Positions 50,771 through 54,271 of a stretch of DNA of 64,000 bases are shown one piece after another. The position numbers and the translations under genes were made by a program. Under the pieces are notes generated by a model. That model saw only the letters and a program-made list of their open reading frames with translations, was not told where the DNA came from and made no database searches. Location: NCBI GenBank assembly GCA_016125285.1, contig WGMA01000041.1, positions 1-64,000 on the forward strand. Reading direction: 5' to 3'. Each line of letters begins with the position of its first letter. The first letter of the stretch is position 1. The DNA comes from Phycisphaera sp. GTDB lineage: Bacteria > Planctomycetota > Phycisphaerae > Phycisphaerales > Zrk34.

Positions 50771-50815
50771 ACCCCTGTTATACTGTCGGCTTTGACCCGA
50801 AACGCTCCGCGCACC

Positions 50816-51805
50816 ATGGCTTCCATCGTTCTCCAACAGCTCGACAGGTACGGCCCGGACCGATGCGACCAGCTCTCCTTCGAGCAGGCCAGCGCGTACG
50901 CCCACGACCTGGTCCGTCGCCAGTACGAGAACTTCAGCGTCGTCAGCTGGCTCGTGCCGAAGCGCCTCCGCAATGACTTCGCCCACGTCTACGCCTTCTG
51001 CCGCTGGGCCGACGACCTCGGCGACGAGACCGGCGACCGCAATCGCTCGCTGGAACTGCTGGCGTGGTGGCGACGCGAGCTGGCGGCGTGCTACAAGGGC
51101 AAGCCGCGCCACCCCGTGTTCGTCGCGCTGCACCCGACCATCACCAGGCACGACATCCCCGCCAAGCCGTTCGAGGACCTCATCGACGCCTTCGAGCAGG
51201 ACCAGCGGGTGCACCGCTACGAGACGTGGGAGCAGGTCATCGACTATTGCAAGCGCAGCGCCGACCCGGTCGGCCGGCTCGTGCTCTACCTGTGCGGCTA
51301 CCGCGACGAGGCCCGCCAGCGTCTGAGCGATCAGACCTGTACGGCGCTCCAGCTGATCAACTTCTGGCAGGACGTCCGCCGCGACATCGTCGAACGCGAC
51401 CGCATCTACGTCCCCGCCGACGTGCTGACGAAGCACGGCCTGCGGCACGGCAACCTCGTCGCGCACGTCAGCGGCGAGCGCCCGCTCGACAACGAGCAGC
51501 GGCAGGCGTACCGCGAGGTGATCCGCGAGTTGGTCGACCGCACCGAGCCGATGTTCAAAGAGGGCCGCATCCTCTGGCCGAAGCTCGCGGCGGACGTGCG
51601 GCTGAGCATCCAGCTGTTCACGTTCGGCGGCGAGTCCGTGCTCAAGGCGGTGCGTCGCATGAACTACGACACGCTGGACACCCGCCCGTCGGTCAGCAAG
51701 GCGACCAAGGCGATGCTGATGCTGCGTGTGTTGTTCGAGAAGTGCTTCGCGACGGGCGACGGCGGGCAGGGCAGGCGGGTCACGCAGGGAGGCGACGCCG
51801 GATGA
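50816..51805 (+). CDS. hpnC: Squalene synthase HpnC (hydroxysqualene synthase)
   Basis: HpnC converts presqualene diphosphate to hydroxysqualene, the second step of the HpnCDE squalene route. The 329-residue product has the all-alpha prenyl-synthase fold with two Asp-rich metal motifs, DDLGDE (about residues 64-69) and DVRRD (about residues 187-191). FCRWADD and RYETWEQVIDYCKRSA are also typical. The ATG at 50816 is preferred over an in-frame TTG at 50792. The stop overlaps the hpnD start (ATGA). The last 20 residues (GDGGQGRRVTQGGDAG) are low-complexity. Confidence 0.92.
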   Translation: MASIVLQQLDRYGPDRCDQLSFEQASAYAHDLVRRQYENFSVVSWLVPKRLRNDFAHVYAFCRWADDLGDETGDRNRSLELLAWWRRELAACYKGKPRHPVFVALHPTITRHDIPAKPFEDLIDAFEQDQRVHRYETWEQVIDYCKRSADPVGRLVLYLCGYRDEARQRLSDQTCTALQLINFWQDVRRDIVERDRIYVPADVLTKHGLRHGNLVAHVSGERPLDNEQRQAYREVIRELVDRTEPMFKEGRILWPKLAADVRLSIQLFTFGGESVLKAVRRMNYDTLDTRPSVSKATKAMLMLRVLFEKCFATGDGGQGRRVTQGGDAG

Positions 51806-52755
51806 GCAGCACCGCGGCCGAGAGCGCGATGTCGGGCGAGGCGTGGGAGGCGGCGTTGGCCGAGAGCCACGCCGTGTGCCGCGAGGTCTCCCGCATGCGC
51901 GCCCGCAACTTCTATTACGGGATGAAGCTGACGCCGGAGCCGCGCCGCTCGGCGATGTTCGCGCTGTACGCGTGGAACCGCGAGGTCGACGACCTGGCCG
52001 ACGAGGCGGGCGACGTCGAGGCGAAGACCGAGGCGCTGGACAGGTTCAGGAAGGACACCGACCGCGCGATCGACCCGACGCTCGACGACGTGTCACAGCT
52101 GCCGAAGGGCAAGATCTGGCCCGCCGTCCGCGAGATGGTGCTGCGGTACAACCTGCCGACCGAATACCTGTACGACATGGTTGCCGGTCAACTGATCGAC
52201 CAGACCAAGACGCGATATACGACGTTCGAGGAGCTGTACGACTACTGCTACAAGGTCGCGTCGCTGGTGGGGCTGTCGTGCGTGGAGATCTGGGGCTACG
52301 ACGGCGGGGCGGAGACGCGCCAGCTCGCCGAGTGGCGCGGCATCGCGTTTCAGCTGACCAACATCCTCCGCGACGTGCTCGAAGACGCCGAGCGCGACCG
52401 CGTGTACCTGCCCGCCGAGGACTTCAACGTCTACGAGCTGAACCCCTCGATGTTCACGCTGAAGGTGCACGACGACGCGTTGAAGGGCATCGCGCGCGTC
52501 GCCCAGCGGGCGCGCGAGTATTACGAAAAATCGGCCCCGCTCGACGCACGCGTGCACGGCTGCGGACGCGCCTGCCTCTGGGCGATGACCGAGATCTACC
52601 GCCGCATACTCGACAAGATCGAACGCGACCCGGCGATCGTGCTCAGCGGCCAACGTGTCCGCCTCGGCAGCGCCCGCAAGGGCATGATCGCGCTGCGGGC
52701 GTCGGTCGGCAGCGTCATCGGATTCCCCTCCGCGAACGGAGGCGCGCGTGGGTGA
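51802..52755 (+). CDS. hpnD: Presqualene diphosphate synthase HpnD
   Basis: HpnD condenses two farnesyl diphosphates into presqualene diphosphate. The 317-residue product has the phytoene/squalene-synthase motifs EVDDLADE (first Asp-rich motif) and DVLEDAERDRVYLP (second), and the SLVGLSCVEIWGY segment. It is a paralogue of HpnC, encoded immediately upstream with a 4-base overlap. Its own last 8 bases overlap hpnE. The three genes are therefore translated as one unit. Confidence 0.92.
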   Translation: MSSTAAESAMSGEAWEAALAESHAVCREVSRMRARNFYYGMKLTPEPRRSAMFALYAWNREVDDLADEAGDVEAKTEALDRFRKDTDRAIDPTLDDVSQLPKGKIWPAVREMVLRYNLPTEYLYDMVAGQLIDQTKTRYTTFEELYDYCYKVASLVGLSCVEIWGYDGGAETRQLAEWRGIAFQLTNILRDVLEDAERDRVYLPAEDFNVYELNPSMFTLKVHDDALKGIARVAQRAREYYEKSAPLDARVHGCGRACLWAMTEIYRRILDKIERDPAIVLSGQRVRLGSARKGMIALRASVGSVIGFPSANGGARG

Positions 52756-54271
52756 GACGGCGATCGTGATGGGCGGCGGGCTCGCGGGGATCGCCGCGGG
52801 TGTCCGACTCGCCGAGCGCGGCGTCCGCGTCACGCTCGTCGAAACCTCGCGCCGCATGGGCGGTCGCGCCTCCAGCCACGTCGATCCCGACTCCGGCGAA
52901 CAGACCGACAACTGCCAGCACGTCGTGCTCAAGTGCTGCGTCAATCTCCTCGACCTCTACCAACGACTCGGCGTCGCCGACCGCATCGAGTGGCACGAGG
53001 TCATGCACTTCCTCGACAAGCAGGGCCACCGCGACCGCTTCGCCCGCTCGTGGCTGCCCGCACCGCTGCACCTCGGCGGGTCGCTCGGCAGATTCACCAC
53101 GCTCGACCGGCACGAAAAGAAGGCCATCGAACGCGCCATGCTCGCGATGATGCGACTCGGCGCGAAGGGACGGGCGAACTACACGGACGTGTCGTTCGGG
53201 CACTGGCTGCGCCGCCTCGGCCAGCCGCAGCGCGCGATCGAGCGGTTCTGGGAGGTCGTCGTCGTCAGCGCGTGCAACGAGAGCGTCGACCAGTGCAACG
53301 CCGCGTACGCCATGCACGTGTTTCAGGACGCGTTCATGAGCCACCGCGACGGCTACGTCATGGGCACCGCGACCGTGCCGCTCGCGCAGCTCTACGACCC
53401 GGCCGAGCAGCTGATCACCGACGCCGGCGGCGAGGTCCGCTTCGGCACGTCCGTCCGCCAGATCGAGTGCGAAGGCTCGGCCGTCACCGGCGTGACCGTC
53501 GGCGACGACGAACGCCTCACCGCCGACCACTACGTGTCGGCGTTGCCGTTCGATCGACTCGACAAGGTTGTCAGCGACGACATGCGCGTGCGCGACTCAC
53601 GCCTCCAAAGCCTCGGCGTCTTCCGCCACAGCCCGATCATGGGCATCCACATGCTGTTCGAATCCGCGGTGATGGACGACCCCCACGTCGTGTTCGTCGA
53701 CTCGCCCGTGCAATGGGTGTTCAACAAGGGGCTGACCCCTCTCCACCAAGTGGGGGAAAGGTTGGGTGAGGGGGATGGATCTGCGGACGCGTCGTCATCC
53801 TCGAGCAGCGCTGAGCAATCGAGCGATTCACCCTCACCCCAGCCCTCTCCCTCCAGGGAGAGGGGGAACGGCCAGTACCTGCACCTCGTGATCAGCGCGT
53901 GCGACGCGTGGGTCGACAAGCCGAAGGACGAGATCCTCGACATGGCCGTCAGCGAACTGGGCGCGTACCTGCCGAAGGTGAAGGACGCGAAGCTGGTGCG
54001 CGGGCGGGTGATCAAGGAGAAGCGTGCGACGTTCCGCGCCGAGCCGGGCATCGATCAGTACCGCCCGCGACAGGTGGGCGCGACGACGAACCTGTACCTC
54101 GCCGGCGACTGGACCCGCAGCGGCTGGCCGGCCACGATGGAAGGCGCCGTCCGCAGCGGCTACCTCGCGGCGCACGCGGCGGGGGGCGGTCGCGGCGAGG
54201 CACTCGAACCCGAACTGCCCGCGGCGCTGCTCTATCGCATGATCGGCAAGCTGTTCCCGTTGCGCGGGTGA
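52748..54271 (+). CDS. hpnE: Hydroxysqualene dehydroxylase HpnE, with a translated repeat insertion
   Basis: HpnE is the FAD-dependent amine-oxidase-family enzyme that reduces hydroxysqualene to squalene, which feeds hopanoid or sterol synthesis. The 507-residue product has the dinucleotide-binding VMGGGLAGIAAG at the N-terminus, an ETSRRMGGRASS motif, and the C-terminal YLAGDWTRSGWPATMEGAVRSG FAD motif split over two conserved stretches. Residues of about 330-373 (reading through SSSSSS and SPSPQPSPSRERG) have no place in the family. They are encoded by an inserted palindromic repeat kept in frame. Without it the length would be close to normal. The start is a GTG with GGAGG upstream. Confidence 0.9.
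   Translation: MGETAIVMGGGLAGIAAGVRLAERGVRVTLVETSRRMGGRASSHVDPDSGEQTDNCQHVVLKCCVNLLDLYQRLGVADRIEWHEVMHFLDKQGHRDRFARSWLPAPLHLGGSLGRFTTLDRHEKKAIERAMLAMMRLGAKGRANYTDVSFGHWLRRLGQPQRAIERFWEVVVVSACNESVDQCNAAYAMHVFQDAFMSHRDGYVMGTATVPLAQLYDPAEQLITDAGGEVRFGTSVRQIECEGSAVTGVTVGDDERLTADHYVSALPFDRLDKVVSDDMRVRDSRLQSLGVFRHSPIMGIHMLFESAVMDDPHVVFVDSPVQWVFNKGLTPLHQVGERLGEGDGSADASSSSSSAEQSSDSPSPQPSPSRERGNGQYLHLVISACDAWVDKPKDEILDMAVSELGAYLPKVKDAKLVRGRVIKEKRATFRAEPGIDQYRPRQVGATTNLYLAGDWTRSGWPATMEGAVRSGYLAAHAAGGGRGEALEPELPAALLYRMIGKLFPLRG
53736..53867. repeat. Palindromic repeat element inserted inside hpnE
   Basis: Two units of about 40 bases (53736-53775 and 53827-53867) are inverted relative to each other. Each is built from CCCCTCTCC / GGTGAGGG-type blocks with an internal hairpin. 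The intervening 51 bases are a Ser-rich coding stretch. The frame is preserved across the element. Confidence 0.8.

Follow-up and report, generated by a model that had tools for sequence, protein, structure and literature searches.

How a gene for a conserved enzyme can carry a palindromic repeat within its reading frame, and whether such a repeat is on its way to becoming protein sequence in its own right, are the questions raised by the hpnE locus in the 64-kb window (the whole stretch of 64,000 nucleotides that was analysed). We consider it highly probable that a non-autonomous, REP-dimer-like (MITE-like) element inserted in hpnE and is translated there as a tolerated loop of 44 residues, as one copy of a repeat that is spreading genome-wide.

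The repeat within hpnE

The gene lies in a cluster in which hpnC and an hpnD-like gene stand ahead of it. The features are as follows.

50792–51805, + strand: hpnC, upstream of hpnE in the same cluster (TIGR03464, 314 bits, above its cut-off)
51895–52707, + strand: hpnD-like domain, given as the domain span and not the gene start (TIGR03465, 215 bits, below the cut-off of 278.6)
52748–54271, + strand: hpnE, the hopanoid enzyme hydroxysqualene dehydroxylase, 507 codons with the insert (TIGR03467, 429.5 bits, profile positions 2–428 of 430)
53735–53866, + strand: in-frame insert of 44 codons in hpnE, a full copy of a dispersed repeat of about 131 bp
53736–53774, + strand: left hairpin unit with GGGTGAGGG tail, translated PLHQVGERLGEG
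53775–53830, + strand: variable spacer of the repeat, about 55 nt, coding for a Ser run
53831–53866, + strand: right hairpin unit, inverted, translated SPSPQPSPSRERG

In the profile search HpnE scores well above the TIGR03467 cut-off of 283. The insert runs from an ACC codon at 53735 to a GGG codon ending at 53866, and its 44 residues are TPLHQVGERLGEGDGSADASSSSSSAEQSSDSPSPQPSPSRERG; the whole repeat copy occupies 53736–53866, of which the repeat model matches 53736–53864. As a single strand the repeat stretch folds at -35.6 kcal/mol (z -2.56), and the repeat unit occurs once within the window against 0.00 expected. The earlier note had described a palindromic repeat of two inverted units lying in frame inside hpnE, and both its sequence and its frame agree with that description. 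An inverted-repeat search at default settings saw no inverted pair in the hpnE repeat, because the two units have diverged here; their inverted relation is evident from other copies and from the family model.

The repeat is probably a late addition to a protein that is otherwise complete. It is absent from all 29 HpnE proteins of relatives in our alignment, which came from genomes that gave a match (56 out of 61, the host's included); HpnEs of the family are 50–57% identical to that of the window, and it is by the nearest named HpnE alone that the host is assigned to the neighbourhood of Phycisphaerae. At the insert site the loop measures 0–14 residues in 27 of the 29 relatives, compared with 45 in the window's HpnE, and the remaining two carry other inserts (L032, 25 residues; L034, 34 residues), neither of which is related to the repeat. 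Thus the empty site that had been expected in relatives is found, and the contrary outcome, in which HpnE of unrelated bacteria would ordinarily include this segment, was not seen among the 29 aligned. No close relative with an empty hpnE site at the DNA level was found, and for this reason the target site and any duplication of it are unreadable at this locus.

The suggestion that the insert occupies a surface loop is consistent with an AlphaFold2 model of HpnE built with 34 homologues. Its mean pLDDT is 91.3, and the sole stretch below 50, residues 339–369, falls within the insert, which is placed at a beta-hairpin turn between strands 323–331 and 374–383. Compared with the solved relative 5mog (Z 43.6, rmsd 2.1, 438 aligned), which has just a short connection at this site, the alignment breaks at the insert. 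The insert is therefore predicted to be a disordered loop. We propose that the element inserted after the lineage had split from the sequenced relatives of the family. With a repeat length that fits the frame, and with the first unit read as GGT-GAG, the ribosome would translate through it, the product would be a hydrophilic, disordered loop of 44 residues at a hairpin turn tolerant of length change, and the enzyme would stay whole.

The repeat family and its copies inside genes

With CCCTCACCCCAGCCCTCTCCC as the search unit and up to three mismatches allowed, the host genome (6.09 Mb in 90 contigs) contains 134 sites, whereas the reversed-pattern control gives 0. A nucleotide profile of 131 positions finds at least 91 distinct loci, at least 76 of them full length. 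The copies listed for analysis come from the flanks of 100 listed among the 134 unit sites, with further ones from a second pattern. Among the listed copies outside genes, 81 gene 3' ends face a copy as against 49 5' ends, and 65 of the 81 have a stop codon no more than 10 codons away, so that the earlier characterization of the repeat as a kind usually found between genes is borne out: most copies lie just behind stop codons.

The two end units form terminal inverted repeats, being inverted and diverged copies of different hairpin variants. AA or GA often precedes a copy, a loose preference that is seen outside genes as well, and no target-site duplication is obvious in the flanks of the listed copies. 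Four Y1_Tnp loci are present in the genome, and near them the repeat model finds nothing at E 100, although gaps could hide another such locus; mobility would on our reading be provided in trans by a transposase. The Rfam search of five loci gave nothing near a gathering score, the weak matches to microRNA families (E 0.16–0.57) being attributable to chance. An exact 32-base signature had no match in a genome contig database that may omit records near the window's genome. Across the phylum the unit is present in 120 of 392 genomes drawn, very unevenly, with 379 sites in G141, 202 in G200 and 0 in most, and weak matches covering about 30% of the query occur in plasmids of other phyla (212 records, E ≤ 10). 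In G141, six unit copies stand in a row, about 173–200 bases apart (G141:C1:569368-570282). At contig ends of the host genome, designated G000, the repeat's hairpin loop is interrupted by an IS-like element with ends GCAGGATATTGC (L129, L121, L153, L152, L103, L093, L170, L172); it probably breaks the assembly, since one of its ends recurs at nine contig ends.

Membership of genes was decided by the codon-usage score of 240-base flanks, which is blind to the frame of the repeat, for the 85 listed copies with both flanks readable (a contig end cuts off six others); a copy was counted as in-gene if one open frame ran through it. Thirteen of the 85 are inside genes, in frame and open, and each has 71 or more codons of that frame on either side. 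Ten share one orientation: those in HpnE, a heavy-metal P-type ATPase, a hydrolase matching PRK10985 (which we take to be YheT-like), a PMT_2 glycosyltransferase, the C52 protein, a PfkB-HAD protein, a Wzy_C protein (a partial repeat), a YpdA-like reductase, a dockerin protein and valyl-tRNA synthetase (valS). The other three, in the opposite orientation, are in a FabA-domain protein, DnaE and a ThiF protein. Pfam or NCBIfam matches are found for 12 of the 13 host proteins; the C52 protein belongs to no known family, and there the call is one of composition alone. Alignments to solved relatives break at the inserts (5mog for HpnE, besides 7a76, 4e84 and 3j09); around the insert such a break is seen in the YpdA-like reductase, the PfkB-like protein, the ATPase and ValS, and in the last three it is wider than the insert. 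A genome-wide search for further copies, especially inside genes, had been proposed earlier; what the earlier reader missed is the scale, since insertions of this kind number at least 13 in the genome, the hpnE copy among them.

Ten further copies, in ten regions of the same genome chosen by peptide search, include none inside genes by the same rule. Kept out of the count were C38 and C41:73121 (partial, with an internal stop), C30:98767 (flank frames differ) and C12:1791 (at an ORF edge). The copy at C51:65193, in an ORF of 1364 aa, was rejected as an in-gene case since its flanks read in different frames. A full-length copy at C74:86825-86954, with long flanks in the same frame and a stop, was considered as a candidate for a broken gene and rejected: it follows truB (L126:3087-4169), to which it gives the stop codon, and a SIR2-family gene comes next.

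The recurrence across 13 loci also bears on whether hpnE might be decaying, or might be a chimera that assembly formed across a repeat. Repeats do break this assembly, and the ends of several contigs fall within or next to copies. However, both halves of HpnE fit one family end to end with the invariant residues kept, and at all 13 loci the two flanks share a single coding frame, where chimeras would join unrelated genes. We regard decay or chimerism as extremely improbable.

Reading frame and fate of the in-gene copies

On its sense strand the first unit has three readings: one is closed by the TGA of GGGTGAGGG, and the other two give ..GRGWVRG and ..GERLGEG. Outside genes these two are open about equally often, GERLGEG in 39 of 57 copies and GRGWVRG in 36 of 57 in one orientation, and in 35 and 37 of 58, respectively, in the other. 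Inside genes the GERLGEG frame is used in 13 of 13 copies and GRGWVRG never; the chance of 13 out of 13 in one of two equal frames is 0.00012. The second unit, by contrast, is read in all three frames among the in-gene copies. The left-unit variant GATGGATC is carried by eight of the nine full-length, same-orientation in-gene copies and by 18 of 67 others (Fisher p 0.0006, a value that is indicative since copies share ancestry), and this variant may be better suited to life inside genes.

These patterns are what a filter acting on translated copies would leave. Between genes, copies would be kept freely; within genes, they would survive solely where the frame is kept, TGA is avoided, the peptide is hydrophilic and the loop is tolerant. 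The single frame might instead reflect the manner of insertion, through a target preference linked to codon phase and not through selection on the peptide. The AA or GA ahead of many copies could bias the phase in this way, but so loose a preference, present outside genes too, together with a second unit in all three frames, makes this explanation unlikely.

A different possibility is that the protein never carries the repeat, which would be removed before or during translation by RNA excision or ribosome bypassing. The strand does contain strong hairpins, and such hairpins are known in some bypassed or excised elements. Removal would need no open frame, and stops would not matter, yet all 13 in-gene copies are open in one frame while about a third of the outside copies are closed in the GEG frame (39 of 57 open). 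The in-gene set is itself defined by an open frame, but none of the cases checked proved to be a copy that breaks a single gene. We therefore judge removal very improbable and retain translation of the repeat as a tolerated loop.

Are the in-gene copies more than tolerated? Nine in-gene and 61 outside copies have similar folding energies per base, and there is no difference in hairpin erosion within genes, whether compared with the same variant (p 0.37) or with all copies (p 0.89). As the insert is predicted to be disordered and the in-gene hairpins are as stable as intergenic ones, adaptation to a protein role is not visible, and the earlier portrayal of a repeat being domesticated as protein sequence is not supported. 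Retained hairpin stability could also be read as a sign of function, with in-gene copies under selection as elements of the mRNA or DNA, or as linkers adding something new to the proteins, and core genes are indeed among those hit (valS, dnaE, hpnE). Against this, no common site, gene class or pathway is apparent, the HpnE insert is lacking in relatives, and its peptide is a predicted disordered one. A functional role of this kind thus seems quite improbable, and toleration remains our preferred account.

Comparable elements in other genomes

Palindromic elements that keep the frame of their host gene are best known from Rickettsia; elsewhere, the accounts drawn on here give scattered cases of REPs. 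The Rickettsia palindromic elements (RPEs) are palindromes of about 150 bp that occur within unrelated genes, keep the frame and encode a conserved peptide, nearly half of them being described as in genes (PMC10969869). By that description the present repeat resembles them in its in-frame insertion in unrelated genes and its one preferred frame (13/13 GEG), and differs in host phylum and in that most of its copies are extragenic, with 13 of 85 in genes. The GTAG/CGTC REPs of Opitutus terrae, Thauera, Thioalkalivibrio and others are inverted hairpin dimers mostly behind genes; in the section on intragenic REPs, some lie wholly within ORFs, including dnaE and tRNA synthetase genes, stop codons are sometimes supplied, and encoded residues are listed for several genera (PMC3733652). 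That section does not describe a single-frame rule such as is seen here. Our repeat is likewise high-copy (134 sites), mostly extragenic and near gene 3' ends, but has GGGTGAGGG beside the hairpin instead of a GTAG or CGTC tag, and no RAYT flanked by it was found at the four Y1_Tnp loci.

REPINs and BIMEs consist of two inverted units with a spacer and are dispersed and apparently non-autonomous. The present repeat shares the paired inverted units, the spacer and the dispersal, whereas its end units are different hairpin variants and no cognate RAYT is linked to it. With MITEs it shares terminal inverted repeats, and no parent transposase was found beside it. A search of mainly open-access papers turned up no description of repeats that lie in frame within proteins of Planctomycetota. 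The kind of element is already known from intragenic REPs and RPEs, while the present repeat family and its host appear undescribed in the literature searched. With 13 or more in-gene copies, some of them in core enzymes and all in one frame, this planctomycete offers a further, independent case for testing mere tolerance of the peptides.

The same process is not confined to the host genome. In regions fetched from G005, G006 and G007, 13 copies were seen, of which four are in-gene by the rule given above: in G005 within genes for a nucleoside hydrolase, an aspartase and a TlyA-like methyltransferase, and in G007 within MiaB. These copies, located by peptide-profile search, extend the process to further genera and to different genes. 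That search, which covered 18 genomes, favours the GEG frame, so the four cases, having been found by the GEG peptide, are silent on frame preference and were kept out of the frame count.

A second, unrelated repeat has entered the same loops. In G004, the best-scoring relative by HpnE, the HpnE loop holds a palindrome of 87 bases (L032:2470-2556, z -6.56) of the CACTCCCC heptamer kind, unrelated to the CCCTCACCC repeat of the window. The heptamer pattern has 64 matches in G004, some overlapping, and 0 in G000. In-frame heptamer copies occur in G004 also in dnaE (L333 / L352), rlmN and ubiD, and the dnaE copy lies in the loop where DnaE of G000 has its own CCCTCACCC repeat. This DnaE segment has 117 residues in G000, 99 in G004 and 66–95 in the 13 other relatives with sequence (in eight of the 23 rows the stretch covered contained no sequence). 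As the loop is naturally variable, the coincidence in HpnE and DnaE speaks for tolerance and not for targeting, and it points directly to where these proteins accept insertions. Whether palindromic repeats in genes are a recurrent source of new protein loops in this planctomycete family, with the unrelated CCCTCACCC and CACTCCCC repeats arriving independently in the same HpnE and DnaE loops, we hold to be an evenly balanced question; if they are, the repeats serve as natural probes of loop tolerance.

Two further observations concern the heptamer repeat, for which the papers listed on cyanobacterial heptamer repeats offered nothing of use. In rlmN its inserts in two genera, L319 (G001) and L334 (G004), are apparently in different places. 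A group of G004 membrane proteins (L315, L321-L323, L325, L327, L330, L336) has TPHSALPTPHS-like peptides in common, which are translated heptamer repeat and directly follow a hydrophobic segment; these are probably duplicated genes (paralogues) with one old insertion.
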